DNA of 64,000 nt from Mesostigma viride (Eukaryota; Streptophyta; Mesostigmatophyceae; Mesostigmatales; Mesostigmataceae), in contig RPFO01000231.1 of assembly GCA_009746045.1 (NCBI GenBank), forward strand, positions 415,388 through 479,387, given 5' to 3'. A program made the translations under genes and the position numbers. A model generated the notes under the pieces. That model was not told where the DNA came from and did not search any database. It saw only the letters and a list, made by a program, of their open reading frames with translations. Of the stretch, positions 13,330 to 63,240 are shown piece after piece. The number at the start of each line of letters is the position of its first letter. The first letter of the stretch is position 1.

Positions 13330-14236
13330 CAAGCAACTAGAAATTATGCAGGTTTTTATACTCCTGCAGGAGGCGACTATATACATCCACCCATGCAGCT
13401 CTGACTCAGCATACCATACTCTATCTACCTCACCTCTAGAATACATCCATTTACATAGCCTTAAACTGGCGCTGCACACCGCGGCCACGTTTTACATCCC
13501 TGTGCCGGGCCACAATGCACTCTACCTCATCCTCTACCTCGCCAGTATCAGGATTATGTTCCAAAGGGGCCGGCAGGAGCTAGCTAGTTGTCTACCGGCA
13601 AACGTGCTCTGATGATAGAGCTTAAGCTGACTCCTATTATGGAAAGAACGAGAGTGTGTCTGCCAGGAGGAGGGAATATCTATTTCATATAAGAAGTTTC
13701 CTACTCTAGAAAGCACATGCACGGAAGGGACCGAGGAAGGCAGGCCTAAGCTTAACCTTCAACTCGAACTTGTGAGCAAATTGGCCAACACGGGGGCCTT
13801 CTACCAACACAAGGTCTCCTATACTTCTATCTCAGGGGCTCTTCTATCTAAAGAGGCACGCAACCTATAGAGAGATACTTGGCTTGCGTATTATGATGAT
13901 AACCAGCAATGTTATTATCGTGCGCATTCTTCATCTTATCTATAACAGTTCACGAACGCCATCCATGCACGGTATCACGAGACACATCATCCTTGTCCCG
14001 AAGGGGACTATATAGCCAAGAGAGAGGACGTAGGGGTAAGAGGTTGTCTACCAGCCAGTATCTAAGAAGAAGGGGGTATAGCCGTGGGCCGCCTGAGGAC
14101 AGTTGTTAAGGTGCATGAGAACTCCACAAGACACAAATAGTCCTCCCACCAGTCACTACCAGAACCGTCCACGTAACTATGCCTAAGGGCTTCTTCTACT
14201 ACCCTATTTAATCTTTCTACCAGGTGAGAGGAAGAG
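13330..14236 (-). pseudogene. Ty3/gypsy integrase C-terminus and chromodomain
   Basis: On the - strand, LVERLNRVVEEALRH is the end of the integrase core. It is followed by DWWEDYLCLVEF, then HGYTPFFLDTG, then GDLVLVEGPRV, then NFLYEIDIPSSWQTHSRSFH ending at QLKLYHQS, the usual order of a Ty3/gypsy integrase tail. Next come NPDTGEVEDEVECIVARHRD and GRGVQRQFKAM, a chromodomain-like segment, so the element is of chromovirus type. Stops and frame shifts interrupt it. The upstream half lies at 24.45-25.55 kb, beyond the inserted CACTA element. Confidence 0.8.
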
Positions 14237-14254
14237 GACACTAGGAGCTCAGCT

Positions 14255-14560
14255 GAGAATTGATTGAGAATTTTTGAGAATTGCTGAGAATTGGCTGAGA
14301 ATATCTGAGAATATCTGAGAATATCTGAGAATATCTGAGAATTTCTGAGAATTTCTGAGAATTTCTGAGAATATGCTGAGAATATGATGAGAATATCTGA
14401 GAATATCTGAGAATTGGCTGAGAATAGCTGAGAATTTCTGAGAATTTCTGAGAATAAGGGGTATGAATAGTGCACAGGCTGAGAATATTGAGAAAACTGA
14501 GAATATTGAGAAAACTGAGAATATTGAGAAAACTGAGAATAACAAGCGACTGAGAATACG
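14255..14560. repeat. CACTA left subterminal repeats
   Basis: About 30 tandem and near-tandem copies of a 10-11 bp motif TGAGAATATC / TGAGAATTTC, then (TGAGAATATTGAGAAAAC) units near 14490-14540. They are likely transposase-binding repeats, as known for CACTA elements. They appear inverted at the other end. Confidence 0.85.
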
Positions 14561-24044: not shown

Positions 24045-24430
24045 GTTTTCTTGGGACTTGTGTTTTTCTCCGTTTTTTGGGTCCTTGTGTTTTTCTCAGT
24101 TTTTTGGGTCCTTGTGATATTCTCAGTTTTCTCGGGTCGTTGGGTTTCCCTGAGAATATTGGACCTGAGAATATTGAGAATATATTCTCAGCTTTTTTCA
24201 GTCATTCTCAGGCAAATTCTCAGTTATTCTCACAAAACTGAGAATATTGAGAAAAAACTGAGAATTATTCTCATTTATTCTCATTTATTCTCTGACATTT
24301 ATTCTCAGTTATTCTCAACATTCTCAGAAAACTGACAAAAAATTCTCAGATATTCTCAATATTCTCAGTTTTTTGTTGATTTTTGAGAATATTGAGAATT
24401 TTTTGAGAATAATCTGAGAATAAATTCTCA
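24045..24430. repeat. CACTA right subterminal repeats
   Basis: The same motif as at the left end, here mainly as GATATTCTCAG / ATTCTCAGTT on + and ending in AATTCTCAGCCGAGTTCC. Units occur in both orientations, so parts fold back on each other (for example CTGAGAATATTGAGAA). Confidence 0.85.
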
Positions 24431-44400: not shown

Positions 44401-44555
44401 ATGCTCCCTGAAACCGCCGACGATGTGGACATGATTCCGCATCGGCCTAGTGGCCTGGGCCAGGCTCCGTTCGCTCAACACCTCGAAGGGCCTGGGCGAG
44501 CACCGCAAGCGCATGCTTTTTGAAGGTCCTCGCCCTCACGGTGCTTACGTGTGGC
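41480..44555 (+). pseudogene. LINE ORF2: endonuclease and reverse transcriptase (5' part)
   Basis: 41905-42135 has ILGVQEHRRTVPFGTVRTDR, an AP-endonuclease-like core. 42260-42560 has LLDANARLPVG and a late D-H block (VCSDHRLVHATI) in shifting frames. The linker GKGMWYHLTGPP (43.06 kb) leads into LKELDGALARLRYDAAVGAD. Next are PAEWQTAIRAMLYKKGSAAD with PGNYRGVCLQSAALKVFMRM, then MGFRRGRNTVMAVF and VFIFVDYIKAFDTV, the reverse transcriptase blocks. The YxDD block is obscured near 44.0-44.2 kb. Text reaches LALTVLTCG at 44555, where the DNA transposon enters. Confidence 0.75.
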
Positions 44556-44622
44556 GGGTGGTCCCACGCGGAATGGGGTAGATTTTTGCAAGAAAAAAAC
44601 GCTAATTTCAATCGTCCGAAAA
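44556..44622 (+). repeat. Left terminal inverted repeat of the giant element
   Basis: Begins GGGTGGTCCC. After 24 bases it differs from the right end by a ~10-bp indel, then matches again through AATCGTCCGA. Subterminal sequence is rich in GCCGAAAATTT-type motifs. Confidence 0.9.
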
Positions 44623-45003
44623 CCGGACATTGCGCCGAAATTCTTGCCGAAAATTTGGCAGCCGAGCGAATTTTTCGCCCGACGGACTTTGCGCCGAAAT
44701 TTTTTGTCTGCCGTGCTTCGAACTCAACCGACTCCTGCTGTTGCGTGCACTTTGTCCGATGCCGGCAGGCCACGCACGAATTTTGCGACCGAAATATGAC
44801 GACTAGACAAGTTTATCGACGACCTACATCGATCTATTGCCACTTTTGAAGTCCTTGGCTTGCTAGCAGCTTTTGATTATCAATGCCGGGAACAAAATTG
44901 CCGAAATTTTTTATTGAATCAGTACATATATGTGCACATGTCCGTAATTTTATCATTCGCAATTTTGACATTGTCGGAGTATTTGACAACTTAGGCATTG
45001 CGC

Positions 45004-45606
45004 CTAGAAAAAGGTGCCCCATCCGTCGATGTCAAAATCGCCGAAGGAGTACACTCCCTGGTACTGGTCTCCCCTGTAGTTGGGAGGCTCGCCTGTATAC
45101 ATTTTGGTGTTCCACTTGGCCCCGCCGTTCTCCGCAGCAGCCAGGAACTCCTGCTGGGCCTCGGCCCTCAGGCGCATCATTGATACATTGGGAGAGCCCG
45201 GAATTTCCGTGCTCTCCACCACCACTCTCGCCTGATTGTCAGGCACGCATTGGTAAGCAGGGTTCAAATCTGAATCGGGTGGCACCAGATCGATCATGCC
45301 ATTGCCGAACGCAATGACACCTGCACCCCACTGTGCAGAAGGTCCGAGCAACTCTACATCAATTCTGATGTTTGCAGCGTGCTCATTTTTGTCGACCATC
45401 ACATAGGTATGCTGAGAACCGAAAATATTGCTCTGCTCCATTTGTGACAGTGTTAAATTTCGGCAAGGTTGGCTGCTTGCAATCGACAGGAAATTGGTGA
45501 CCCCGACAGCCAGACGCGCAAGGGTTATAACTGCAGGTAGAACCCAAAATTTGTCGATAAGGAGTAATGGAAGGGCACGACCACCAGTCACTAGTATTCG
45601 CTTCAC
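45004..45606 (-). CDS. Unknown gene near the left end of the giant element
   Basis: A 200-codon frame on -. A strong acceptor (TTCTACCTGCAG, ~45530) inside it suggests the coding part is a last exon beginning near ITLARLAVGVTNFLSIASSQ, or starts at MEQSNIFGSQH. The rest reads HTYVMVDKNEHAANIRIDVE, MIDLVPPDSDLNPAYQCVPD and TEIPGSPNVSMMRLRAEAQQ, ending YSFGDFDIDGWGTFF and stop. Composition is globular, not repetitive. I recognise no family. It has the same orientation as the transposase gene and could be its final exon or a separate cargo gene. Confidence 0.5.
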   Translation of the reverse strand: MKRILVTGGRALPLLLIDKFWVLPAVITLARLAVGVTNFLSIASSQPCRNLTLSQMEQSNIFGSQHTYVMVDKNEHAANIRIDVELLGPSAQWGAGVIAFGNGMIDLVPPDSDLNPAYQCVPDNQARVVVESTEIPGSPNVSMMRLRAEAQQEFLAAAENGGAKWNTKMYTGEPPNYRGDQYQGVYSFGDFDIDGWGTFF

Positions 45607-45761
45607 CGGACACCTTTTTCAGCTTCCGGATAAAATTCAGCAAGAGCAGCGGCGATTAGATACTAAATATTGCGTTATTGGTTCGTACCGTACCCAGACA
45701 AAAATTGTACTAGTGACGCAATTGTACTAGGCGGAATGACAACTGCGCCCGGCAAATAAGT

Positions 45762-45976
45762 ATTTATTGCTCCAACCCCACACCTAACTTGTTCCGGAGC
45801 TGTTCGAAGCGAAGAGCAATGGAAGGGATCGGACCCGAGCCAGATTTGAGTGCGGAACATGATGGCTGGCCTACCTCACTCCGAACATTAAGGTGGACCC
45901 GGGTTCGAATCCTGTCAGTGCTATTCGCTTCGAACAGTTCCGGAACGATTTTTTTTGTGGGGGTGGAGCAATAAAT
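45762..45976. mobile_element. MITE-like hairpin with tRNA B-box motif, 215 bp
   Basis: The arms at 45762-45818 and 45919-45976 are inverted copies (ATTTATTGCTCCAACCCCAC; GTTCCGGAGCTGTTCGAAGC against GCTTCGAACAGTTCCGGAAC). The loop contains GGGTTCGAATCC at 45901, a B-box-like sequence. No duplication was identified with confidence. Confidence 0.65.
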
Positions 45977-46263
45977 TCTCGACATGCAGAAACAAATGTC
46001 GAATAGATTGTGCAAAAAAATATCGAAATCCTTATCATTATTTAAATATACAGCATAAAATTATGTTGCAGTAAAAAATAACTGTTAATTGAAGGCCGCA
46101 AAAAATTATCAACTACCCTTAAACTTGACCACAGAAAGATCTCGAAAAATATATACAATATATGCGGCCACCTTTTTACACCCTACTGAAGCCCCACTCT
46201 AAAGATATAATACGAGCCGAAACTAGGGCGTCGTCTACCCGCAGCGAGACCCCAATTTCTTGT

Positions 46264-49200
46264 TTAAGTCGGTGCCGGCCCCTCCGGGGCTTCATCCTTG
46301 ATCACCAGCGCAGTAAGCCACTTGTCGAGCTCCTTGCTCATCCTGATGTCGGCACACATTCCGTCGCTGCGCACGCGTGCTTCTAGCCGGAGAGCCGGAG
46401 CGACGCAGAGATAGCAATTCACAAGCTCGGGCTGGCGTGACGGTGGCCAATCCTCAACGTTGAGCGTGAAATGCAGGGGGTCATGCTTATCCCGCTTCCA
46501 AATCCGAACGGGAAGAATGCCGTTCCCGGCGAGGAACAGCTCCTTCTCCCGTCCGTTCCGGCCCTCGACCCACCTCTCGAAGTTCTCGTCTAACACGATC
46601 GGCCCGGCTTCGCTTACAACCTCAGCCAACCAGAACGGGTGGATGGGATCGTGATCCGTGTCCTTGTCCGATGGAACTGCCACATAGTCGTGGAGTCTCA
46701 TCTGCCGGCCCATCGCCTCCCGCTTGTCCTTCAGCTGCTCCCCCCGCGTCACCATGCGAACCGGAGGGTTGGGCTGGCTCGGTGGCAGCAAACGGACAGT
46801 TTTCATCGAGCTTCCTGCATCATTGAACTCGATGATAAACGACCACTCGCTTAGACATCCCTCAAACCGCCCAGCCAAACAGGGCGGACAGTAGCAGGAA
46901 TAGCGCCTAATCATCAAAAGGCCAGGGTCGGACTTGTCCAGTCGCCACCAATGCGCCTTCTTGATGCCAGGCACCTCCTCAACCTCCGCGCGTCGGCCGG
47001 ACTCGACGTCCTGTCATCAAATAGTTAGGACAAAAAGAATACCGTTCAAATTAGCAAAATTGACCAAAAACCAATAAAACAGGGTATAGCTGCAGAGAGA
47101 CCCCTTAAAAAAAAAATTAACGACAAGACATCAAGTGATCAAAATTCGACACAGGGTATAGCTGCAGAGAGACCCCATTCGAATCATAATAACAACGTAC
47201 GACAAGATATCAAGTGATCGAAATTCGACACAGGGTATAGCTGCAGAGAGACCCCATTCGAATCATAATAACAACGTACGACAAGATATCAAGTGATCGA
47301 AATTCGACACAGGGTATAGCTGCAGAGAGACCCCTTCATACCGAAAGAACAAGCGAAATTTCATACCTAAAAGAAAAGCAACCCATGGACAGTATATAGG
47401 GTCTCTCTGCAGAGATACCTTTATTGGGTTTGAATTTTTATAGAACAGCGGCAGTTGACGTCTTAAAACCTGAAATAACACAAAATTCCGTACCGGGGGT
47501 AAAAGGAAGAAGTGGCGAGTGACGTTCTCGGCCCGCGCGCGGGCCGACTCCCTGCTCGATGTCTTGCCGCCCTGCCAGTTCTGGTTCAAGTAGGCGACTA
47601 GCTGGTGGGTCTCAAGTATGTGCTGGTTTTCGGGAATCCTCTGCATTTCCCTCAAGACGCACTTGCACTTCGCTCCTTGACCATCCACCTCCCCCTTCCC
47701 ATGCTGCTCCCCCATGTAGTGGAACTCAAAGGCCTGCAGGTCGGGATCCCCCATGAGCAGACCGTTAATCTGGTTAATCACGTACCTGGACTTAAACTGC
47801 ACCGCGCAGTTGTCCGAGCACATGTACAGGTTTCGCACCTCTACCCCTACTTCTACCCGCAGGGTTTCCAGAATCTTGCGAAGAGCGTATACGAGTGCGC
47901 GCTCGCCCCGCTTGATACTGGAATCCCCCAGGAAAAAGAAGACGCGCTTTTCCAGCTCGCCGTTGAGCCGATAACGCACGATCATGGGCATCAGGATGTG
48001 GCTGCGCTTGTGGAAGTACTGCGACTGCAGTTGGACGTAGCTGCTGTTCTCGTAGTTCTCGGCCCAGTCGCCGTGCACGAGCACGTCCCCCTCTCTCAGA
48101 TTCTTCTCCCGATCCTTGATTGTATCCGCCTGCGACCAGGCCGTAAAGCAGTGCACGGTGAACTTGTCCCACCTCTTAAGAATCTCGTCCCGCAGCTCAG
48201 CTGGGGTGGACCTCATTTGGACTTGCTCGGGCCGCTTCACCTTCTTCGCCGCCCTGCCATCGGTCTCGCCCTGTTTCGCAAAGGTCCGCAGACAGTTTCG
48301 ATTTGCAATAAAATCGCATTTCGATCAGATAACTGCAACTCACAAAGGGTCTCGCTGCAGCTATAGGTCACAAAAAAAAAAGTCAACAACATTTAACGGA
48401 GAAATAAATCGAAACCTACTCACCCTCACCCCTCGGGTCACAGTCTGCTCCACCATCTCGAACTTGAACCAATTCAGAATCTCCGTGGAATTCTTGTCCC
48501 GATCACACTGCACCCAGTTATTATGGATGCCGCATGATTCCTCAGGACAGAACCCCTCCACACACGCCATCTTCAGTATGCGGTGAACCCTCTCCGTCCT
48601 CGGCACCCCATCTTCGTCCTCCACCAGCCTCTCAGAAATGTCGAGGTCTTCCAGGTCCCGTCCCCGCCATTCATCTTCCCCCTCCCCCTCTTCCATCCCC
48701 CCGCCCATTCCGCCCCCTTCACGCAGCCCGTTATCCCTGCCGTCAGTCTCGGCGGACACCGGGCAGTGAAAGTGCTTGATCCAGTCCGTCGAGTGAATGG
48801 CTTTCCACATTCCGCAAGTACCGTCCGGCTGTCTGTACTTGGAGCATCCCGCACACTCCGCGCCACACTTGCAGTTCTTGCCGTGGTTCGCATTGCAGTG
48901 CTTGGTCCACGCCCCCATGGCCGACTGCATGGTGACGTGCTTCTCACACGCGCACAGGTTCCTCTCCTTCCACTTGCCCTTGATGCAATCGGGCGCGTAT
49001 TTGCAGAAGGTCGTGTAGCCCACGTGAATGCCCACGTCCTTATCATACTGGTCACTCCTTTTGTTCCAGTACGCATGCTTTTCGAGAAAGTGATTGTACA
49101 TGTCCTCCTTGGAGGTCATGTAATAGCGCGCTCCCTCAACGGCGACGAGCACCCCGCGATTGCCATGACCCTCCCTGCTGTAAGTGCGCTTGACATCCTT

Positions 49201-50345
49201 CATCTGGGAGGAGGCGCGCGACTCATCATCGTGCATCCACGCGTCCACTATCGCGTCAATCACGAATTGCGGCAAAGGGCGCCCCTTGCGAGCCTGCGCG
49301 TGTCTGAGGTAGTCCAACTTCTGCTGCCTTCGTATCGCGCGAATTCCGCGAATCTTCTTGGCGTCCATCCCCGTCAGGTTCTCCAACTCCGCGGCCGAAA
49401 ACTCCTTCTCCAAGTCGTCACCACAGTAAAGCGTGGACATCAGCACCATCCTGACGTCTCTGTCTGCGTCGCTTTTGGTCAGACCATCAAAAAAGCCGTT
49501 AATCCGAGCCACCCAGAACCTGTTCAGTTCTGCCATCCGCTCCTGATTGTAAAGCTTTTTCGCCTCCTCATGATACTTCCCGTGACCTAGTTCAGCGGCC
49601 CTAGAGTTAAAGCCAGCAATCATCTGGTCGAAAGCCGGCCCCCGCCCCTCGGGTTTTGTCATCGCCTGAGCCGCTTCAAACGCCTGGTCAGCGAAATATT
49701 CCCCAATAACCCTCTTTGATTTCGAGTATTCTCCCGGCCGCTTGACTTCCTTGGCTTCAGGCTGCGCTGGATTCTGGTTCTCATCTCCGAAAACCCTTTT
49801 TGCGCCAGTTGACTGCTTCGTCCCGGTGTTCAACTTAATTGCACTGAATCCTGGACGACCGGACGCAAGGGCGAAAACTCCCACCCGTTCGCGTGCTGCA
49901 TGCCATGACGACCGGCACAACGAAATCCATGCAAATCGAGTATCGTTGGGAAAAGCGACAATTACAGACAAAGTTCGAAAGTGTATCATTTTTTACCACG
50001 ATTGGGGTCTAGCTGCAGCTAGACCCTTAGAGGGGCTTTTTCCGTTAGACGAAAAGATTACCTGATGTGGTGAACTTAGCATACCCCGACCAAGATTGGG
50101 GTCTCGCTGCAGCTAGACCCTTCATTGCGGCGTGCGATTGTTAAATCACAGACTTCTGATTCATTAATTTTATAGCAACCATAAAGAGGGTCTAGCTGCA
50201 GCGAGACCCTTGAATTTAAGCTATTGCTTGTGGTTATAAATGGTCTAGCTGCAGAGAGACCCCAATAAGGACGAAAAGATTTCAGGTTTTCCTCACCTTC
50301 GCGGCTCATTCTCTTATTAGTTCTCCCAGAACACTCAGATACCTG
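46264..50345 (-). CDS. DDE-type transposase of the giant element (4 exons)
   Basis: Exons: ~50345-50297, 49850-48424, 48270-47494, 47010-46264, giving ~1,000 residues. Exon 1 is VSECSGRTNKRMSRE; the split codon joins to GFSAIKLNTG. Exon 2 has GEYFADQAFEAAQAM, an HTH-like middle (MDAKKIRGIRAIRRQQKLDY) and a Cys/His block (FCKYAPDCIKGKWKE, LCACEKH, CKCGAECAGCSKY). Exon 3 holds the likely catalytic core: VLVHGDWAENYENSSYVQLQ (first Asp), LYMCSDNCAVQFKSRY (second Asp) and FHYMGEQHGKGEVDGQGAKC (Glu in HGKGExDG). Exon 4 has RRYSCYCPPCLAGRFEGC and HPFWLAEVVSEAGPIVL, an SH3/BAH-like look. The same D-ENY, SDxxxxQ(F/Y)K and HGKGxxDG order is in widespread, mostly unnamed eukaryotic DDE transposases; I link it tentatively to Sola. 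The exons carry no frame breaks and look functional. Confidence 0.75.
47110..47335. repeat. ~79-bp tandem repeat in transposase intron 3
   Basis: Three units of ACAAGATATCAAGTGATCGA, AATTCGACACAGGGTATAGC and the palindrome remnant, separated by TTCGAATCATAATAACAACG. Each unit carries one decayed palindrome copy. Confidence 0.85.
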
Positions 50346-50349
50346 CATG

Positions 50350-51770
50350 GCGAGAATAACAAAAATAACACAGTAGCATTGATAAAATTGTTTATCAGAA
50401 AATATATATACTAATTACAGTATATTTTGCAAAAGATTTTATAATATATTGTGAATAGCATGGTTAAATTCCACATACTTTAATAATATGGTATGTTAAA
50501 GTATATAGAATCATTATTTAGTAAATCATTTACAAGAAAAAGTGGTATAGACTATTATTATTATATAGTTCGGCAATCTATGATAGTAAGACATACCGGA
50601 TGTCAGGTTTATCAGCGGCCTCCAGGGCTATAGCGTCTCGCTGCAGCGTGACCGTTTGGTGCTATGACTGATTTCAGTAGATGTGCAGAAAAAAATTTAT
50701 TTCCATGACCACACCAGGAATCGAACCCAGAACCTCATTGTACATTTCTGCATGGTAACGATGTCAGCCAAACATCCGAATGTTCCCAGGTAAATGGGCT
50801 GGAGGTCGTCTCTTTTTATACCTGCGGCCACAAGCACGGGTGACGGCATATTGGATGTCGTCCAATCCGCTAGCTTGGTTCCAAAAGATGGGATCGAGCT
50901 TTTGCACCAGCGCCGCGCTTCCAGTTTTCAGTTCCGTGGGGAGGAACGAGGATGCCACGTTTCCAATTTTTTCAATACCGTTCAGCCCTGTGACGCCGCG
51001 TCCGGTTTGCGAATTGCGACCGTCCCATCGCCCATCGAAAAAGAAGCGCAGCCGCAGAGAGACCCCATAGCTAATAGTAACCAGCTGCAACCGTTTGCAT
51101 GCTACCTGCTTTTTTACAACATCGCTTTGCTACCTGTGCATAACGAAAGGAAATCGGTCTTCAAGCAATTAAGGCAATCGGTCTTCATTTTCCCGCATAA
51201 AGAAAAAAGGTGAGCTTTTGCCGCATCGTGGATGGTAGGCTGACAAAGTTTGTTCTATCAAAAACGGCAACTAAACAGCGCATGCACGCCGACGACACAG
51301 TTAGCCAGCTGGGCGAAGACATGTCCTTGCTGCCATCGCAAGAAACTCTATGTTGCAGCAAGAGTGATAAAAATGTCTGGCTTCCTTCTTTTCGTTGCTA
51401 GCTAAACCCTGCAGACATCTCGGTAGAGTCAGCTAAGCCGATCCTAATCCACATCTGGCATCCATCCCTTTAGTCTAGTTGCCATGGAGCGTTTCTTGGT
51501 CTCGCACATGTCGATCATGGTGGTGCTAGGCTTTCACTTGGGTCACCCTTTCCATGTTTGCTATGCCTTTGGTCTGGTTAGGTTATAGGTGTAGATGTGC
51601 ACATACTGCATTTGCTGCGTTTCTAATCGGTGCTCCTGTTTGATGCTTTTTTTCCCCTTCATATCGTTTCGACGTTTGCATGCTACCTGCCGGATTATAA
51701 CATCGGACGTTGCTACCTACCTGCATAACGATAGTTTGCAAGAAATCTTCATTTTGCCGAAACACAAAAA
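50350..51770. other. Region upstream of the transposase gene
   Basis: AT-rich at 50370-50620. A decayed palindrome lies at 50630 and another at 51048. Two ~110-codon frames overlap at 50764-51090 on opposite strands, with no way to choose. The phrase ending CGAAACACAAAAAAAGGTGATC (~51755) resembles TAAAGAAAAAAGGTGAGC at ~51199 with shared flanks (GCATGCTACCTGC; GCCGCA..CGTGGATGGTAGGCTGAC), so ~51060-51250 and ~51670-51830 are related copies. Confidence 0.5.
50699..50771 (-). other. tRNA-like sequence
   Basis: On - it reads TTTGGCTGACATCGTTACC ... GGTTCTGGGTTCGATTCCTG, with a B-box and a 5-bp T stem but no pairing acceptor stem. Probably a SINE or tRNA pseudogene, not a functional tRNA. Confidence 0.4.
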
Positions 51771-51814
51771 AAGGTGATCTTTTGCCGCAACGTGGATGGT
51801 AGGCTGACTAAAAT

Positions 51815-52945
51815 TGTGCTGCTACGTATCAATACATGTGGGGGGTGCTGCTACGTATCAATACATGTGGGGGGGTGCTGCTACGTATCAATACACGTGG
51901 GGGGGTGCTGCTACGTATCAATACATGTGGGGGGGTGCTGCTACGTATCAATACATGTGGGGGGGTGCTGCTACGTATCAATACATGTGGGGGGGGTGCT
52001 ACGTATCAATACATGTGGGGGGGTGCTGCTACGTATCAATACATGTGGGGGGGGATGCTACGTATCAATACATGTGGGGGGTGCTGCTACGTATCAATAC
52101 ATGTGGGGGGGTGCTGCTACGTATCAATACATGTGGGGGGGTGCTACGTATCAATACATGTGGGGGGGTGCTGCTACGTATCAATACATGTGGGGGGGTG
52201 CTGCTACGTATCAATACATGTGGGGGGTGCTGCTACGTATCAATACATGTGGGGGGGCTGCTACGTATCAATACATGTGGGGGGTGCTGCTACGTATCAA
52301 TACATGTGGGGGGTGCTGCTACGTATCAATACATGTGGGGGGGTGCTGCTACGTATCAATACATGTGGGGGGGTGCTGCTACGTATCAATACATGTGGGG
52401 GGTGCTGCTACGTATCAATACATGTGGGGGGGTGCTGCTACGTATCAATACATGTGGGGGGTGCTGCTACGTATCAATACATGTGGGGGGGTGCTGCTAC
52501 GTATCAATACATGTGGGGGGGGTGCTACGTATCAATACATGTGGGGGGGTGCTGCTACGTATCAATACATGTGGGGGGGTGCTACGTATCAATACATGTG
52601 GGGGGGTGCTGCTACGTATCAATACATGTGGGGGGGTGCTGCTACGTATCAATACATGTGGGGGGGTGCTGCTACGTATCAATACACGTGGGGGGGTGCT
52701 GCTACGTATCAATACATGTGGGGGGGTGCTGCTACGTATCAATACATGTGGGGGGGTGCTGCTACGTATCAATACATGTGGGGGGGGATGCTACGTATTA
52801 ATACATGTGGGGGGTGATGCTACGTATCAATACATGTGGGGGGGGATGCTACGTATTAATACATGTGGGGGGGTGATGCTACGTATCAATACATGTGGGG
52901 GGGGATGCTACGTATCAATACATGTGGGGGGTGATGCTACGTATC
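51815..52945 (+). repeat. Minisatellite array A (TGCTGCTACGTATCAATACATGTGGGGGG)
   Basis: About 38 units of 26-30 bp, highly homogeneous: GCTGCTACGTATCAATACAT then GTGGGGGGG. Variation is mainly in G-run length (6-8) and one or two GCT. The last units change to GATGCTACGTATTAATACAT. Very long frames in all three forward frames (up to 390 codons) are repeat artefacts. Confidence 0.95.
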
Positions 52946-53905
52946 ATTTATTTATTCATGCCATCACCCCCACATTTAATGATTAATGCCAGCACCCCCC
53001 AACATTCATTTATTCATGCCATCACACCCCCACATTCTTTTATTCATGGCAGCACCCCCCCACATTTATTTATTCATGCCATCACCCCCCACATTTAATG
53101 ATTAATGCCAGCACCCCCCAACATTCATTTATTCATGCCATCACACCCCCACATTCTTTTATTCATGGCAGCACCCCCCACATTTATTTATTCATGCCAT
53201 CACCCCCCACATTTAATATTAATGCCAGCACCCCCCAACATTCATTTATTCATGCCATCACACCCCCACATTCTTTTATTCATGGCAGCACCCCCCACAT
53301 TTATTTATTCATGCCATCACCCCCCCACATTTAATTATTAATGCCAGCACCCCCCAACATTCATTTATTCATGCCATCACACCCCCACATTCTTTTATTC
53401 ATGGCAGCACCCCCCACATTTATTTATTCATGCCATCACCCCCCACATTTAATTATTAATGCCAGCACCCCCCAACATTCATTTATTCATGCCATCACAC
53501 CCCCACATTCTTTTATTCATGGCAGCACCCCCCCACATTTATTTATTCATGCCATCACCCCCCACATTTAATTATTAATGCCAGCACCCCCCAACATTCA
53601 TTTATTCATGCCATCACACCCCCACATTCTTTTATTCATGGCAGCACCCCCCCACATTTATTTATTCATGCCATCACCCCCCACATTTAATTATTAATGC
53701 CAGCACCCCCCAACATTCATTTATTCATGCCATCACACCCCCACATTCTTTTATTCATGGCAGCACCCCCCCACATTTATTTATTCATGCCATCCCCCCC
53801 ACATTTAATTATTAATGCCAGCACCCCCCCACATGCATTTATACATAGCATCCCCCCCCACATGTATTTATACGTAGCTTCCCCCCCCACATGTATTTAT
53901 ACGTG
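52946..53905 (-). repeat. Minisatellite array B, inverted relative of array A
   Basis: About 32 units of ~29 bp arranged as seven to eight higher-order repeats of ~119 bp (CCAGCACCCCCCAACATTCA recurs every ~119 bp from 52986). Read on the - strand the units follow array A: CCCCCCACATTTATTTATTC against the complement CCCCCCACATGTATTGATAC. The last three units (CCCCACATGTATTTATACGT AGC) are nearly array A reversed. Confidence 0.9.
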
Positions 53906-53955
53906 GTCGTAAGGGTCTCGCTGCGGGTAGACCCTCGGAATTTTGTTTTTGTATT

Positions 53956-54310
53956 GACGTAAGGGTCTCGCTGCAGCGAGACCCCAAGGAATGTCAATTT
54001 TTCATGTTTTCATGATGGGGGGTCTTTCTTTTCTCACCCTTAAAATGATTTGTTTTTGTATCGGTGTTAGGGTCTCGCTGCAGCGAGACCCCTACGAATG
54101 TCGACTTTTAATGTTTGCAAGATGGGAGGGGGCTTTCTTCGCTCACCCTAAAAATTATTTGTTTTTGTTTGACGTTAGGGTCTCGCTGCAGCGAGACCCC
54201 AAGGAATGTATACTTTTTTATGTTTGCATGATGGGAGGTTGCTTGTTTTCGCTCACCCTAAAAATGATTTGTTTTTGCTTGAAGTGAGGGTCTCGCTGCA
54301 GCGAGACGCC
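53956..54310 (+). repeat. ~110-bp tandem repeats each headed by a palindrome
   Basis: Three to four units consisting of palindrome, AAGGAATGT, (A/T)CTTTTTATGTTTGCATGATG, GGAGG, CTCACCCTAAAAATGATTTG and TTTTTG. The palindrome is perfect in the first three units. Confidence 0.9.
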
Positions 54311-54453
54311 AAAGTTTTGCATTAAACTAAATGTCCCTTTTAGAATCCACGAAAGGGTCTAGCTGCAGCGAGACCCTCCCCATCGTTTTTCTGCCGGCGA
54401 TTCAGATTCTGAATGACATTTGTGAAACTTGCTTTTTTGATATTGTTCTGCAG

Positions 54454-57400
54454 ATGTCGTCCTCCTATTCCGATTCTGTCAAGGCCACTCCCGTTTCACC
54501 CAAGATGACGTCGAACACCTCGCCGGACCGAACGGCAACGGAGGCGTTTCCTCCGTTGCAGTTCGGTCCCGTAAATGCTCTTGCGAGGTCCCCCCCACCG
54601 AGTCCCCTCGCCCTCCAAGTCCAACTTGCCCCCCAGCGAGTTGGACAGAATTATACCCCCCAACTCTCTCGCTGCTGCGTCTCGCGCTCCGTCCCGCTCT
54701 CCGCCCCGTAAGTCTCCATCGCCGCCCCCCAAGTCGGCCGGAGCTACTGCGTCCCGCTCGCCGCCCCGCAAGTCCCCCAAGTCCCCCGCAACTGCGACCC
54801 GTTCGCCGAACCGCAAGTCCCCCTCTCCGCCCAAAGTTCCCCCCGCTACCGCGTCCCGCTCTCCTTCTCGCAAGTCCCCCTCGCCGTCAACCAAGAACCC
54901 CGCAACTGCGTCCCGCTCGCCGTCCCGCTCTCCTTCCCCCAAGTCCCGCTCGCCGCCACCCAAGTCCCCCGCTTCTGCGTCCCGCTCGCCGTCCCCCAAG
55001 CATTCCAGTTCTAAGCGTAAGCCTGCGGCCGAGTGGGTAGAGGAAGACGACCGCACCAAAGAGCTCAGGAAGCTGAGGAAGTCTATCAGTGAGCTTGTTG
55101 AGGAGGACGAGCGCGATCAGACTAACGGGAGGCCTGAAGACCCGGAATCGCCGGTTCGGGAGTCGCGTCAGAAGCGGTTGTCCGATTTGTTAGCAATGGC
55201 CGCAAGCTTTGCTGACGAATACGCGGCTCTCGACAAGAAGGACAAGGAGAAGGAGAAGGCGGAGAGGGAGGCCATCGAGAAGGCGGAGAGGGAGAGGGTG
55301 GAGAGGGAGGAGAAGGAGAGGCTGGAGAAGGCGGAGAGGGAGGAGGAGGAGAGGGAGTACAAGGAGAAAAAGGCTGCCCAGGAGAAGGAGCACAGGATCC
55401 TGGTGGCGAAGCAGAAGGAGGAGGCGAAGAAGAAGACGGAGGCGGCAGCGAAGGAATTCTTGCGGAGGAGGCCGCTCTTTTTTTGCAGATGCGACAGGAG
55501 AGGATGAAGGCGGAAGAGGCCGCGAGGAAGATGGAGGAGGAGGCTGCGAGGAAGGAGGAGGAGGCTGCGAAGGCAGTTGAGGGGGAGAAGGACGAGAACG
55601 GGAGCCCACCCCTTCTTCACGAAGGATTTTCAGTCGATTATCAGGTATGTTTATTAATGTGAGACGTACATTTTTCAGATGGCTTGAACGGCGTGTGTGT
55701 ATCGTAGAAAGGGTGGGATTTTATGTCATACATTGATCGTAAGGGTCTAGCTGCGGAGAGACGTTGACCTAGGAGTTAAGGTTGTTGACGACGACGATGT
55801 GTGGCCTTTTTTTTACTCTTGTTGTCTGCAGCCCTCCACGGTGGCCATTCTGAAACAGTACCTGGCTCAGGCTGAGTCTGAGTCTGGGGTGAGTCGTAAA
55901 GCCGAAAAGGGCTTGAGAGGCTTGATCCGCTTTCTTTCGGCCGAGATAGCGTTTGCAGAGAAGTCCGGTGTCGTCGTGGACCGTCCGGAGTCGGCACACA
56001 TAATTTGGAAGAACGACCGCTGGGCCGCTTGCATTGTTCGAAGCCACACAGCGAGCCATTCATGGGAAGAGGGTCGTTGGTGACGACATGTATGAGGTTT
56101 TGAAGATCGCGCAGTCGTGCATCCTTAATCTGAAGGAGGATGTCGGACGTTACTTTCCCCGTCGTGCTTTAATATGGTCGACGCTCTTTGATGAGGTTGA
56201 AAAGTTCGAGGTCCACATTGGCTTCACATGCATCGAGGCTTCCTATATGGAAACCTTGAAAACCACTGCGTTGCATCAGCTCTTTAAACTCATGACTGGA
56301 GATATGAGAGCGGATTCGAGGGCTTCACTGTCGGAAGATGAAGTGTTTGATATTGTCAGGCAAGGATTTGTTGACACGTCCAACAGTGACTTTATCGTAA
56401 TTGTGCCGGGAAGAATGAATGACGTAGGAGGATTGGAGGAGCGCGCACATGAAGTGATCGCGCATTTGGACATGGCAAGAGACCACTTACTGCAATCTTT
56501 TGTTAAGTGGCGGACTGACTTTCTTGTCAGCCCGGACGCCAGCCTTTCGCGGGAAGCGGTCGCTTTCTTTTTGGATTGGGCTGGACAGGTGATCCAAAGT
56601 TTCCGGCACCGGGAGGACTTCCATGTTATTCAGACATATAAGCCATACCGGGAATCGTCCAGGAATGGTTGGATCAAATCTCGTTGGTTGATTGTCTCCA
56701 GAGTATCCGAACCAAGACAGACACGGAGTGGTCTGATTTAGAGGCGGGAGGCCATTGGCAGTCCCTCGAGTTGTTCTTCGAGGCGGAATTGAGGCGGCAA
56801 CTGGAAAAGGAGAGAGCCCATCAAGTGCCGATATGGCCTTTGGGGAAGATTTTGAGGAGGTGGAAGTTCTACGTTTCGGTACGTTAACTTGCCGATATCG
56901 TTTATCGATTTGGGTTGTTTCCATTCCCTGAATAGGGCTCTATATGCTGACCAACCTTCATGGTTTGTCCTGTCATATCATGCAGGGGGGCTCCATGCCA
57001 GGGGACGTATCGGAGGATTTACCTAATTTGTCAGACTTGGTTGATAAGGTGGGTGCTTGTCCGTCGAGTTTCCACGAGCATCTTACATGGGGTCTAGCTG
57101 CAGGTAGACCCTCACCCTTTTATTGAGACTGACATGTTCGGCTAATTTCAACGGTGCCCCCAACCAATCTGTTGTCTTTTTTCAGGGGGCGGCTGCGGCG
57201 ATGGCTGTTGACAGTGCTGGTATTTGGTCTGGACTCGAGATGGAAATGGTAAGCATTAAACGATATCCGGATGTCTGCATTTCGCCTGAAGTTTTAGTGA
57301 GCGCATTATGCGAAATATACAAATATCGACTAATTTTGATTTCCAATGAGCTGTCGTATTCGGTGTTGACAGGCGGGGGGTTTGGCCTCAGCAGGCGCTG

Positions 57401-60400
57401 CCGGAGAGGAAGAAAACGCTGGAGGAGATGAGGATGGGGGGGATGAAAACGCTGGAGGAGATGAGGATGGGGGAGACGCTGAGGGAGAAGTGGCTGTGCA
57501 GGTACGTTCATCCGCCGCGAGTTCGTGTGATTTTTTTCGTGCTGAGGGGTATCTCCGCAGAGAGACGATGGTGCAACAATCGAACTGAGGTCAAGTCCCT
57601 TCTTGTTCGTTTTTTTTTGTCATGCAGGCGGGGGCTGTCGCTGGGGGTACTGCGGGGGGGAAGGCGGCGAAGCCTCCATTGACTGAGCATGAAAGGGAAA
57701 AGCTGGATTCCCGCAAGAAGGTTGCGAAGGATCATATTATTGCTGTTGGCCTGATCATGCTTAAGTCTCCGCCCGATGGCGTCGATTCGGAGGGACCTGC
57801 GGGGTCCGAGTTTCGCAAGTACCTGACACGACTTGAGGCGGAAGTCGATGCCGATTTCGATACGGAGGTGTTGGGTGACGCTACCTTTAAGAGTGAATTG
57901 GCATATGAATTCGCAAATCTGGTGAAGTCGAAAGCCACCAAGAATTTCAAGTGGCAGCCTAAGGAGTACTCAGAGGCAAAGGTTGACAAGATCGAGAAAT
58001 TCATGAAGGCTGATTTTCGTCGTCGGGCCGCTGAGGGAAAAAGGGCGCTGAATGCGGTGGCAAAGGCCAACAGTAAGAAGAACGCGGAGGCGAAGGCGGC
58101 GGAGAAGGAGGCGAAGAAGGCGGAGAAGGAGAAGGCTAAGGAGGCCAAGAAGCAGCAGAAAACTGGACAGGTACGATTGTTGTGAAAATTTAGACCTCTC
58201 GCTGCGGGTAGACGCTGACCGGCTGCGGGACTTGGTGTTTAGTGTCAGTAAGGTATTATTCCAACAGAACTTTGTTCGTCCCTGAACAGGATGTCGTGGT
58301 CGGCCTAAAGATTACTGACTTGAGCAAATCCTGCGGTCCTTTTCGATTTTTTACTTCAGGATGACGGGGGGGACGAAGACGCCACGGTGGAGAAGAAGTT
58401 ACCTGGTCATGACGCCGTGTTCGCGCTGGTGAAGGATATGCTCAAGTACTGCTCGAGTAGGCGGATGGCGGACGTCGATGACCTGCCAAACTGGCCCGAG
58501 TTCTCCCCCTTTCTTGAGCTGCTCCGGTCACTCAACAAGCTTTTTAAGGAGGGGGTGCTCACGAGCAGTGGGAACCCGGACACCGACCCTATCATTGAAA
58601 GCTGGAAGCCTTCGAAAAAGGTCGACTCGAACAAGGAGGTCAGGGACCAGAACATCCGGAAGGCCAATACTCTCAGGGAAACGCGTTGGATTCGGCCGGC
58701 CGATTTTAAGCAGACCGGATGTTTCAGTATGCGGATCCAGACGGTCAACGCGCTTATTTTGCCAGAGGCTTTGAGGCAGCGGCGTTTAAACCTTGAAACC
58801 ATTAAGGAGAACGGCCGCATTCTCCTCAATGCGCGGGACAACGCCTTGCACTTCAAGGTTGTTGTCCCGGTCTGGCAGTTCCCTTTCCAGGCGCTTGCCG
58901 AATCTCAACCTGACCTGTTCGACAAGCAAATCTTGTGCATGCCGGATTTCGTCAAGTGGCTGAAGCATCACCACGGCGCCAAGATTGACGCGGAGGATGT
59001 GGGGTCCAGGTACTTCCGGCCCCTTTCGGATACTGAAGTCGACGTGTGGCTTAACACGGAGTCCACCACCTCTTTCCTCGCGAGAGGACTTGAGTGGCGT
59101 ACCTACGCCAGGGTGGACGAGGTGGAAGCAGTTTTGCCTCAGGAGATCGAGGGCAGTCGGCAAGTTTTCAACCTGCTGTGCAATACTGCGATGAAGTCCT
59201 ACGATCCGAAATTTTTTGAGGAACGGGACCGGTACCGTATCTGGTTCTCCGGTACGCGGTGGTGGATGGGAACCACTACTTTAAGGGGTTAAAGTCGTTT
59301 CTCAGGGGGCCGGATGGCGGGTGGGGAGAGGTTCGGGCAATGATGTGCGAGGGTGGGGCGGAGTCCAATTTCGCAAATACTCCTAAGGAGGCGGAGCACG
59401 CCTTCCAGGACCTGTTGCGGAAATTCCGTGGTGGTTACATGGGTACGAACGTCATTCTTCTCAAGGGTGGCGACCTGCTCCCGTCGTGGAGTGAGCTGCG
59501 AAATCTACCTAAGGCAAAAGAAGATGTAAGCTATCTATTTTGGCAGGGTCTAGCTGCGGGTAGACCCTCGGAATTTTCGTGGTTGTTTTTTGTGTGCGCT
59601 TCAAGTTTTTTGCGAGGGTCTCGCTGCAGCTAGACCCTCTCCTTTTTTTTGTTGGAATTTTCGTTGCGTATTGTCGGCCGTTTCTTTTTCGAATTTTGTT
59701 AGGGTCTATCCGCAGCTATACCCCTCGCCTTTTATGACTGAGTTTTGTCGTTGCTCGCTCGATGTTAATTGATGTCGCAGGCGGTGCTGACCGGCAAGCT
59801 GGAGAAGCTGTTCGACATCGCCAAGGGGGCGAATTCGGAGGACTTAGCCGTGGCGGATCGTACGCTGGGCCAGGCGTTGCTTGACGTGTGGAACTACAAC
59901 AAGCTATATCTATACGGCAAAGTCACGCGTGGGAAGGGCCACTATATTGCGGATGGCCACTACACCAATCTGCTCACGTACATCCTCCCGGCTATGCGGC
60001 AAGCGGGGGGAAGGGAAGGGAATGTGGAGCCGGCAGCGGTGGATGTACACGAGGAGGAAGCAGAAGGAAAGAAAAAGCCGGCCCACAGCATTGCTTCAGT
60101 GCATTCCGCTTACAGTCGCACGCTGGCCAACACGTTTCTCCGTCTGACACAGGAGCAGACTGATGATCCTGCCTCAACGAAACCCGCGCCTGAGGAGGTG
60201 ATGATGCAAAGGTGCAAATTCGCCAATGCAGAGGGGGAGAAGAAAGGCCAGAAGGTCTCTTGGACTTCTTTCAGGAACTTGGCCAGCCTTCCTATGATGG
60301 ACGCCGTGATCGATTGCATCATGAGCTGCCAGGTTGGACCGGAAAAGCTCACCAAGTTGGTGGAGATCGCCAAGGATGTGCTGGAGTGCCTGCGGCTGAC

Positions 60401-62942
60401 CATTTGCGCCAGATTCAAGGAGGATGAGACGCTGGAAGCGCAATGCAAGGACGCAAATGGCAAGGAGTTTGTGGCGTCTCATATTTTCGAACTCGTCTTC
60501 AATCTCCATCCTCTCGCTCGGCCGGTCGGCAGGAAGGAGATTGTGGCCAGATACCGGGAATTTTGGGATGTGGCCGTCATCATAACGAGGAACATCGCCT
60601 ACCTTCTTAAAGCCAAAAAACACGCCGCACATCTGAGGATTCCGAGAAAGGATATCAGTAATGGCAAGATCGACTTTCAGGAGATTCTGCTAAAAGAGAG
60701 CGAGGACAAGACGGTGGGTTTGGCACTTTTGGCTCCGGAAGCGTTCAGGAAGTACGCTCCAAAAGTTGGATTACTCGAAGGGGGGTGAAGGAGGCGGCGA
60801 TGAAGGGGCCGGTGAAGGGGCTGGAGAAGGGGAAGGGGAAGGGGAAGGAGACGGAGGCGAAGAAGGAGGAGGAGGAGTGGGACGTGAAGTATGAGTGGCA
60901 GAGTGTGGACTGGGGCCGTCGCCGGGTCTGGTTTTGCTGTCAGGCTAGACGGTGATGATGATGACAAGTCGCTCGTCAAGCAGGTGGCAGGCGAGGTTGC
61001 CTCAGCTTCAGCCCGCCCCTTTCCCTTGGGCAGGTCCCTTCCGTGCCTGAGCCTGCTGAACTTGGCGAACATTTGGGGTGATAAGTGGAGTAACTTTCAG
61101 AGAGGGTGGTGGGCGTTCGGTCCTTGCCCGACAGCTTCGGACATTCCCCAACCGGGCGGGATGTACGATAATGTGCTGAAGGCTTGCGCCCACGACTTTT
61201 TCTCCAGGTTCGAACCGATGGTGATCGTGTTTGGTACCGAGACGGAGATTAAGGGGTTTCAAGAGATAGTGGAAAGGATCGGGAAAGGGAGTGAATTGTG
61301 GGAGCGGCTTGAACAGGGGGAAGGTGATGGGGGGCCTAGGCTCGGAAGGGCGAAGAAGCGAAAAGCTTCCCACGAAGCTGGGGGATCGTCCGCCGTGGTG
61401 GAGAGGGATGACCAACAGTTGTTGGAGGGAGGGGATGGAGGGGATGGAGGTCCGGCAGGAGGGTCTAACCGCGGAGAGACCCCCGTCGAGGTCAGAACGC
61501 AGCAGGCCGAACAGAGGACGGGGCCTGAAGGTGATTCGGATCCGCCTGCGGCGAAGAAGCCCGCTTCTCAAGTGACTCGACGGGCAGTCGTGTCACTTGT
61601 TGAGGATGATGGAGGTGGGCCTTCCAAGCCTGCCGCGTCGCAGCCCGTTTTTCAGGTTCCGAAGAAGCAGCTTCGGGTTCCCCCGGCGACTCTGCCCACC
61701 CCGGCGCCTCTGCCCAGTTCTCAGGTACCGAAGAAGCAGCTTCGGGTTCCCCCGCCGACTCTGGCCATTTCTCAGGTACCGAAGAAGCAGCTTCGTAAGC
61801 CAGTTGTGGCAGTGGCTGATTCGGACGACGATGCTGAGGAGGAGGAGGAGGAGGAGGACGACGATGCTGAGGAGGAGGAGGGGGAGGAGGAGGAGGAGGA
61901 GGAGGAGGAGCAGCACGTTGCTACCAAGAAATCCGCCAAGGGTGGGAAGGCTGCGGAGCACGTTGCTTCCAAGAAATCGGCCAAGGTGGGGAAGCCTCCC
62001 AAGCCTGCCCTGCCTCAGAAACGGCGTCGAAAAGCAGTTGTGCTTTCAGATTCGGACGATGAGGAGGAGAAGGAGGAGGAGGATGGCGGCGGAGAGGAGG
62101 AGGACGGGGGAAAGGAGCGCGTTGCTTCCAAGAAGTTACCCAAGACCGCGAAGACTGCCAAGGTTGCCGAGCCCGCCAAACCCGCCCCGGCGCCTGCCCC
62201 CCACCCCCAGACGGGGTCTACCTGCGAGCAGAGGTCGAAGGAAAAGGCCAAAAAGGGTAAGAAAAAATCTGCGAGTGAATTCTGGTATGTAGAGTGTTTT
62301 GATTTTTCACGGTTGGCAGTCCGATTTCTACTAACTCGATTTTAGTCATGCGTTGATGGCATGATCGGTTTGCTCGCAGGTAATGAGGATGTGGAGCAGT
62401 TACTTCGCTTGGCTAATGTGGCGGTGGGCTTCGGACCAGCGGCTGTACATGCTGACACTTCCGGACGGGAGGAGCCTAAGGGGGCGGAAGACAGTCAGGC
62501 GGGCGATGAGGATGATGACAAGCCCACGTTGGAAATGAGACTTATGGACGGGGAAATGGGGTTCGGAGCACCAGAGGCCTTTTGGTGTGATGGGTGGACT
62601 TTAGCCATTATGCAAGCAGGGAACAAGGATACGGCTACGCCAATGTATGCCAAGCTAGAAGACGTCATGCTTTATGGGCAGGTGTCTGGATACGACACCA
62701 AGTGGAGGGACGTCGCATTTAAGTTTTTCGCTGAGGGGGAGAAGGGAGGGAAGTTGAAGAACAAGTTGTGGTGGATGCCGCTGGACTACGCGATGAAGGT
62801 GGTAAAGCTGACGGATGGCAAGAGCTGGAAGGATGTGGAAGTCTGGGCGCCTGCAAAGGAGATCGATAAGAAGAGGAGGAACTCGAAAACGGAACAGCAG
62901 ATCGCGGAAGCGAAATTACGGAAGAGGCCCTCGAAAGTGTGA
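54454..62942 (+). CDS. Long multi-exon gene of unknown function (giant-element cargo)
   Basis: Exons visible from GT-AG sites: 54454-55644, 55832-56878, 56986-57048, 57186-57248, 57373-57501, 57628-58170, 58360-59525, 59781-60713 or beyond, ~60790-62284, 62380-62942; about 2,300-2,500 residues if one gene. Order: Ser/Pro/Arg-rich N-terminus (ASRSPPRKSPSPP repeats), KE-rich coiled coil (~55.2-55.5 kb), globular segments (RALIWSTLFDEVEKFEVHIG; DAVFALVKDMLKYCSSRRMA; ADRTLGQALLDVWNYNKLYL), an acidic/basic region with VPKKQLRVPP repeats and poly-Glu (61.6-62.2 kb), and a last exon with FGAPEAFWCDGWTLAIM ending RKRPSKV. Frame breaks at ~54595 (C run), ~55450, ~56030, ~56645, ~59255 and ~60780 need single-base changes. 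No known domain recognised. The charge pattern suggests a nuclear, nucleic-acid or chromatin-binding protein. It diverges from the transposase gene. It could also be two genes split near 59.6 or 60.8 kb. Confidence 0.65.
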
Positions 62943-63160
62943 GGGAAAGTTAGCACTTGGACATGCGCTGGCAATGCTCGTCCTATGGTTAATACAAAGG
63001 TTAGGATGATGTCGAGTCTCTCCACGTAAAATTTACATGAATTACTAACTTTCAAGCCTCTCGATGTGGAATGTACGCTCAAATTGACGTGAATTAAGCA
63101 TTATGACACCAAATTAGCTCGAAAATACGCGATCGGACGCCAAATTCGCGCGAAAAAAAG
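62943..63160. other. 3' flank of the long gene and subterminal region
   Basis: Contains a duplicated phrase (TCTCTCCACGTAAAATTTACATGAATTA and CCTCTCGATGTGGAATGTAC..TTGACGTGAATTA) and CCAAATT-type subterminal motifs. No coding. Confidence 0.6.
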
Positions 63161-63161
63161 A

Positions 63162-63236
63162 TATCGGACGATTGAAACTAGCGTTTTTTTCTTGCAAAAT
63201 GCGCCAAAAATGACCCCATTCCGCGTGGGACCACCC
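63162..63236 (-). repeat. Right terminal inverted repeat of the giant element
   Basis: Ends CCGCGTGGGACCACCC. Contains the extra GGCGCATTT-type segment absent from the left end. Upstream sequence has GGACGCCAAATTCGCGCG-type motifs. Confidence 0.9.
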
Positions 63237-63240
63237 TGGC

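Follow-up and report, generated by a model that had tools for sequence, protein, structure and literature searches.

Dyad repeats within a giant transposon of the alga Mesostigma viride as probable binding sites of a family-specific protein

What do 29 copies of a short palindrome do inside a single giant transposon, and why are most of them found in its introns? The locus was read in a window of 64,000 nucleotides from Mesostigma viride (contig RPFO01000231.1, positions 415,388 to 479,387), in which an 18.7-kb transposon with terminal inverted repeats (TIRs) occupies 44556–63236 and is bordered on both sides by the 4-bp target site duplication (TSD) TGGC. An earlier note on this DNA had described the palindromes and proposed that they were binding sites for a protein of the element, RNA hairpins or a tiny mobile hairpin. 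Comparison of sites, copies and families favours the first proposal: the palindromes are probably double-stranded DNA sites with dyad symmetry for a dimeric, sequence-specific protein that would recognize its own transposon family and is probably encoded by the element itself.

Sites were collected in two ways. The 20-mer GGTCTCGCTGCAGCGAGACC, searched with up to three mismatches, gave 18 window sites at 47083–59636 and none in 100 shuffles. A degenerate consensus in International Union of Pure and Applied Chemistry (IUPAC) code, GGGTMTMNCYGCRGNKAKACCC, which was composed after sites had been seen and was used for both window and genome scans, matched at 17/22 or better in 33 places of the window, 29 inside the element and four, all weak, outside it (two at 17/22, two at 18/22). 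Exactly 27 of the 29 fall in the 47.1–62.2 kb interval for which the earlier note had given about 27 copies, and its division of these into 17 intronic, eight intergenic and two exonic was exact; its statement that copies occur only there missed 45523 and 46231, which lie outside the interval and inside the element. The full set comprises 17 intronic, 10 other non-coding and two exonic sites, with at least one site in 8 of the 11 introns. After six tandem copies were dropped, introns held 6.2 sites per kb, exons 0.19 and the remaining non-coding DNA outside satellites 1.7 (intron versus exon, P = 3e-9; intron versus other non-coding, P = 0.005), which confirmed the reported concentration in introns. 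Exons may be avoided because coding sequence would not easily hold such sites. The sites nearest to the two ends of the element are about 1.0 kb and about 1.75 kb away, and the half-site at 62214 about 1.0 kb.

The half-sites were then compared within the family of the window element (family A). With 51044 and 62214 excluded as half-sites, 27 sites remained, and removal of the six tandem copies left 21 sites with 42 halves. Position 7 held only A or C (22:20), position 6 was T in 41 halves and position 5 was C or A (36:6); positions 4, 9 and 11 were invariant, an invariance biased by the site-picking consensus, which favours those letters. A free scan with positions 5–8 unconstrained found 25 element sites and one further match outside the element, and after removal of the same six copies its 38 halves gave A/C at position 7 in the ratio 20:18 and T at position 6 in 37. 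At variable positions the left and right halves of a family A site matched in 34 of 63 cases, where random re-pairing expects 34.6. All nine arm pairs were present in only two of the 21 non-tandem sites, and the copies described earlier as symmetric are thus symmetric in their consensus but not individually. Since the halves vary independently and the stem is rarely complete, each half appears to be constrained alone, as in a two-fold protein–DNA contact. Each half would be a separate recognition site (GGGT-M-T-M-N-C-Y-G in family A), paired with the other at fixed spacing about the dyad.

The same data bear on the proposal that the palindromes act as RNA hairpins in pre-mRNA, in splicing or in small-RNA silencing. 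The majority of copies are indeed intronic, a perfect copy folds as RNA at -16.9 kcal/mol, with a stem of 9 bp closed by the loop UGCA, and a second family (family B, below) has a weak excess of symmetry; but the arms of family A do not covary, most copies are unable to form the stem, five of the 21 sites fold at only -0.2 to -3.0 kcal/mol, and the bases YGCR of the supposed loop are kept palindromic too, which a loop does not require. Hairpins were rejected for family A on these grounds, and we regard them as very improbable overall.

Read along the element, the sites begin with GGTTATAACTGCAGGTAGAACC (45523–45544), upstream of the ATG of a small third gene, and 46231–46252, past the stop codon of a transposase-like gene. 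In the transposase gene, five (47082, 47154, 47233, 47312 and 47399; 47082–47420) lie in intron 47011–47493, a degenerate one (48347–48368) in intron 48271–48423 and four (50005, 50099, 50188 and 50241; 50005–50262) in the first intron, 49896–50296. A degenerate copy stands between the two divergent large genes (50633–50654), a one-sided copy from the consensus scan at 51044–51065, and six palindromes (53913, 53963, 54070, 54178, 54288 and 54355; 53913–54376) just upstream of the ATG of the plus-strand gene. Introns of that gene hold single palindromes at 55743–55764 (intron 55645–55831), 57090–57111 (57049–57185), 57547–57568 (57502–57627) and 58194–58215 (58171–58359), and three (59546, 59616 and 59702; 59546–59723) in intron 59526–59780. 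The exonic copies are the half-site 62214–62235 and GGGTCTAACCGCGGAGAGACCC at 61461–61482, which codes for GSNRGETP; both had been called degenerate, which does not hold for the latter, a full consensus match.

A protein search with the transposase returned three relatives (P0001–P0003, all with the EukProt label Mesvir1), two of which define further families. Family B corresponds to P0002, with a transposase 59–62% identical to that of the window; its first large exon matches the genome in at least 45 places. A complete copy (C1424) is 21,760 bp long, has the TIR GGCCGGGCCCACTTCGAATGTTCCG, unlike that of A, and the TSD GAGA, and holds 23 sites by the scan that leaves positions 5–8 free; for the half-site tables, 8 of the 23 were dropped as tandem or near-identical. 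By this same scan, T occupies position 6 in 37 of 38 halves in A but in 2 of 30 in B (P = 1e-15). The places nevertheless correspond to those of A. The first transposase intron has four sites in A and three in B, and the intron before the last exon five and two; a site follows the transposase stop codon by about 11 bp in A and about 7 bp in B, and another precedes the ATG of the third gene by about 80 and about 75 bp. Before the plus-strand gene, B has a cluster of 10 sites with a 58-bp array, and A is likewise clustered there. Three successive small introns of the B plus-strand gene carry one site each (by eye), and A sites also occur in separate small introns. By reading, 22 of the 23 B sites lie outside coding sequence, with 15699 undecided. 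A search of the complete B element with four non-coding segments of A, namely all three transposase introns and the cluster before the plus-strand gene, yielded matches only at palindromes (E ≤ 0.05), and the short middle transposase intron had no match at this threshold. By eye, the palindromes in the B introns (L036/L037, oriented 13628–14350) have similar surroundings, as if exon and intron had been duplicated in tandem.

The cluster at 53913–54376 stops before the splice-acceptor-like TTCTGCAG (pyrimidine-rich CAG) that abuts the ATG of the plus-strand gene, and its B equivalent ends at an acceptor-like GCCGCAG followed by charged coding-like sequence. Because both end at an acceptor-like sequence, the clusters of A and B may be first introns; the earlier count of eight intergenic copies was correct, but it includes this cluster.

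Family C corresponds to P0003 (41–42% identity), for which 7.2 kb of sequence (L041) was examined. Its palindromes are of the types GTTACGCCGGCCGTCGTTAC and GTTGCGCCGGCCGGCGTTTC: four precede the first transposase exon found and a fifth lies in a later intron, all scoring 17–19/20, against a maximum of 16 in the 64-kb window. Five further degenerate tandem copies were seen by eye in another intron, and a second family C copy has four upstream sites. No site of the A/B framework at 8/10 was present in L041, and one weak match at 7 was found. The families would thus keep the arrangement and change the spelling, with protein and sites diverging together. Because the spelling differs between families, the protein is probably encoded by the element.

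In the 439.9-Mb genome the consensus scan found 2949 sites, with none for the reversed control, and the exact 20-mer occurred 393 times. All 50 distinct places listed out of the 2949, only part of which were read as DNA, resemble in spacing and spelling the window element or a short relative; with respect to whether the palindromes are equally frequent elsewhere in the genome, a result that would have told against their being the element's own, this is a partial test, and it found element-like places only. The palindromes had also been called private to the element, which is right within the window but not in the genome, where the motif is shared with a short non-autonomous relative. This relative is about 590 bp long (585–588 bp in six full copies), has family-A ends, and shares the first ~130 bp of the window element. 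Two palindromes about 226 bp apart were present in eight of the nine copies read, a count biased by the sampling of these copies through palindrome matches; one copy (L045) lacks the first, and another (L038) contains an additional insertion, about 750 bp long. Measured from the nearer end, the first palindrome lies about 133 bp in on the left and the second about 205 bp in on the right; over about 120 bp the two halves of the short element agree at 73%, and the stretch between its ends has no match in the 64-kb window. An exact 4-bp TSD was present in 10 of the 11 insertions with both ends read, namely the window element, eight of nine short elements and, by eye, one family-B copy; in L045 the TSD has one mismatch. 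For family B, the first 100 of the 130 matches to its ends, judged by spacing, showed no short elements.

Searches beyond the M. viride genome were negative for the 20-mer in a prokaryote genome collection (0 matches), and the exact 20-mer occurred once in an IMG/VR viral contig (L001:9337–9356), between two longer open reading frames. A prokaryotic or viral origin was rejected, with the single viral match taken as coincidence. Four spellings of the 20-mer had no match in a literature text search, and a literature search on Mesostigma palindromes and transposons returned chloroplast work only.

A host transcription factor could also bind such sites, which the elements would then exploit as intronic enhancers. 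Clustering at first introns and at the 5' ends of element genes fits this idea; but there are three spellings in three families (two related, one different), and in spacing and spelling the 50 places listed out of 2949, part of them read as DNA, look like copies of the A element or of its short relative and unlike host genes. We hold a host factor to be improbable.

Less easily set aside, though still unlikely, is a role in transposition itself: the sites would be cis-acting signals, internal enhancers to which the transposase binds, and not targets of a regulator or anti-silencer. That the short non-autonomous elements retain their ends together with palindromes speaks for this; the window sites, however, are far from the ends and mostly at gene starts and in introns, and tandem multiplication within introns is unexpected for signals of end processing. 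En/Spm (through TnpA) and Ac carry a subterminal repeated motif that is bound by an element protein and lies no more than a few hundred bases from the ends. The sites of the window element are instead about 1–9 kb inside and mostly intronic, while the first site of the short element, 133 bp from the end, differs in this from the ~1 kb of the window element.

The number of palindromes has grown by tandem duplication of site-containing units. Eight window copies are in tandem units of 79 bp (47079–47338) and 107 bp (53942–54312), four in each, and site-bearing units recur elsewhere: 58 bp in B, about 65 bp in C (by eye) and about 226 bp in the short element. Local duplication of this kind would multiply binding sites. 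It bears as well on the suggestion that the palindrome is a tiny mobile hairpin, or a parasite that lives on the transposon in the manner of an introner, for which many copies, several of them in different introns, might speak. Direct repeats flanking the 22-mers were not above chance (7, 3, 1 and 1 sites for k = 2–5, against 6.5, 2.5, 1.7 and 1.0 at random), and where three other family-A copies and L002 could be aligned, none of 968 bases of non-coding sites was deleted, a count that takes in the cluster sites 53913–54355. Placements are moreover common to A and B, and the multiplication observed is tandem. With no flank duplications above chance and the sites retained in other family-A copies, the mobile hairpin was rejected and seems to us scarcely credible. 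Introner elements are repeated units tied to introns; the Mesostigma palindromes are likewise intron-linked, but carry no insertion signature and occur outside introns too.

Constraint on the family A sites was examined by comparing the window element with three other A copies (L039 with L049–L051 as one copy, L052 and L053), with the six cluster sites 53913–54355 set aside because the copies had been reached through palindrome matches. Substitutions were found at 2 of 572 site bases versus 144 of 7016 other non-coding bases (P = 0.001), which lends modest support to constraint. In family B, 29 copies compared with one showed no difference among 3080 site bases, and the 13,930 other intron bases had 21, confined to 4 positions; such numbers are too small for a test of selection. 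The independence of the halves, their fixed spacing, the signs of constraint, the respelling between families, the corresponding places in A and B and the gene-less short relatives together argue for recognition by a family-specific dimer, and it is on these that the binding sites first suggested in the earlier note find their support.

Several results weigh against recognition by such a dimer. All three A copies were reached through palindrome matches, and leaving out the three loci that came from the site listing weakens the substitution test (2/286 versus 132/5054, P = 0.048); the short elements were sampled by the same route. Halves of family B sites match slightly too often (P = 0.13 for positions 5–8, 0.047 for positions 1–9), three of the 11 introns have no site, and the full-consensus site at 61461 is exonic. 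No Pfam family was above cut-off in any element protein tested, and AlphaFold models had a mean predicted local distance difference test (pLDDT) score of 35.8 and 44.4 (transposase, A2, three sequences; third gene), too poor for a structure search.

The remaining features of the element give the setting in which a binding protein would have to be sought. The left end (44556–44700, plus strand; TSD at 44552–44555) begins with the TIR GGGTGGTCCCACGCGGAATGGGGT..., and the right end with its TIR lies at 63100–63236 on the minus strand (TSD at 63237–63240); the TIRs are about 73 nt long and 82% identical. The transposase-like gene (46264–50309, minus strand; relatives P0001–P0003) has large exons at 48424–49895, 47494–48270 and 46264–47010, which join into a single open frame with no frame switches, and a short first exon (50297–50309, encoding MSRE) whose splice agrees with P0001/P0002; splice sites were set by frame continuity and by the N-termini of these two relatives. 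The large second gene (54454–62942, plus strand) has nine exons and eight introns. It is partly kept in family B (about 27–57% identity, in pieces outside repeats), and no homologue at E ≤ 0.001 was found among 7984 candidates scored. In the window copy this gene has seven frame switches, signs of decay or of assembly errors.

Two 30-bp satellite arrays, G-rich then C-rich, lie head to head between the genes (51816–53900). In family B (L036, L037) a 30-bp array is also found between the divergent genes, and in family C (L054) 71-bp arrays in both orientations and a 30-bp array lie upstream of the transposase; such arrays are a recurring part of the layout across families A, B and C. Elsewhere in the window, the motif CTGAGAAT / ATTCTCAG has 36 copies, all at 14–15 and 24–25 kb (14253–14541, 24045–24421), which may be motif arrays belonging to a different large element.

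The binding protein might be the 145-aa product of the third gene near the left end (45004–45441, minus strand), a candidate that is 63% identical over 119 aa in family B and has no Pfam match. For the transposase, Pfam gave sub-threshold matches only, in one family (DUF7869, E 0.12; TniQ, E 0.11). As to superfamily, 4-bp TSDs are a feature of Sola-type DNA transposons, and the window element, the short elements and family B share it; a Sola-specific literature search found nothing.

How a protein bound at such sites might act is suggested by the VANDAL elements of Arabidopsis. These are Mutator-like and have a TSD of about 9 bp, unlike the 4-bp TSD of the Mesostigma elements. According to passages of the work on their VANC proteins, VANC acts on its own families through short motifs, with loss of DNA methylation as the effect; VANC21 signals are strongest in introns, intergenic DNA and terminal non-coding DNA, with the 9-base motif YAGTATTAY; the targets are often tandem repeats and vary between related elements; and the VANC6 motif is also found in AT9TSD1, an element unrelated to the coding one (PMC5735166). 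The Mesostigma elements are similar in that a short motif is repeated, often in tandem, in non-coding parts, and in that it changes between related families (position 6 in A versus B, a different motif in C). They differ in having a 22-bp dyad where VANC21 has 9 bases, and no VANC-like protein was recognized in them by Pfam, a search that did not compare VANC directly. Binding and demethylation have been shown for VANC in Arabidopsis, whereas binding at the Mesostigma sites is predicted from sequence.

By this analogy, the element protein would find its own copies, non-autonomous ones included, and act from within them, keeping the copies transcribable (anti-silencing), regulating their genes or helping transposition. 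Of the three we favour anti-silencing, and we rank transcriptional autoregulation and a role in transposition only slightly lower. Anti-silencing is preferred because of the VANC analogy and because methylation is widespread in M. viride, where, according to parts of the methylome report, cytosine methylation (5mC) is mostly at CG and expression is inverse to promoter methylation (PMC6947507).

We put forward tentatively, as something that may well not hold, that in M. viride, an early-branching streptophyte alga, giant TIR transposons have independently evolved a VANC-like self-recognition, in which each family would have a dyad address of its own in its introns and a protein specific to that address, with non-autonomous relatives riding along. 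To our knowledge, motif-level understanding of how a transposon finds and reactivates its own copies comes mainly from one Arabidopsis system. If the proposal is true, the three families, with transposase identities of ~60% and 41%, would form a natural series of change in protein–DNA specificity, and short intronic repeats in large elements would offer a way to detect self-recognition systems. If the same trick is used by another type of transposon at the base of the plant lineage, element self-recognition would be convergent and perhaps common.

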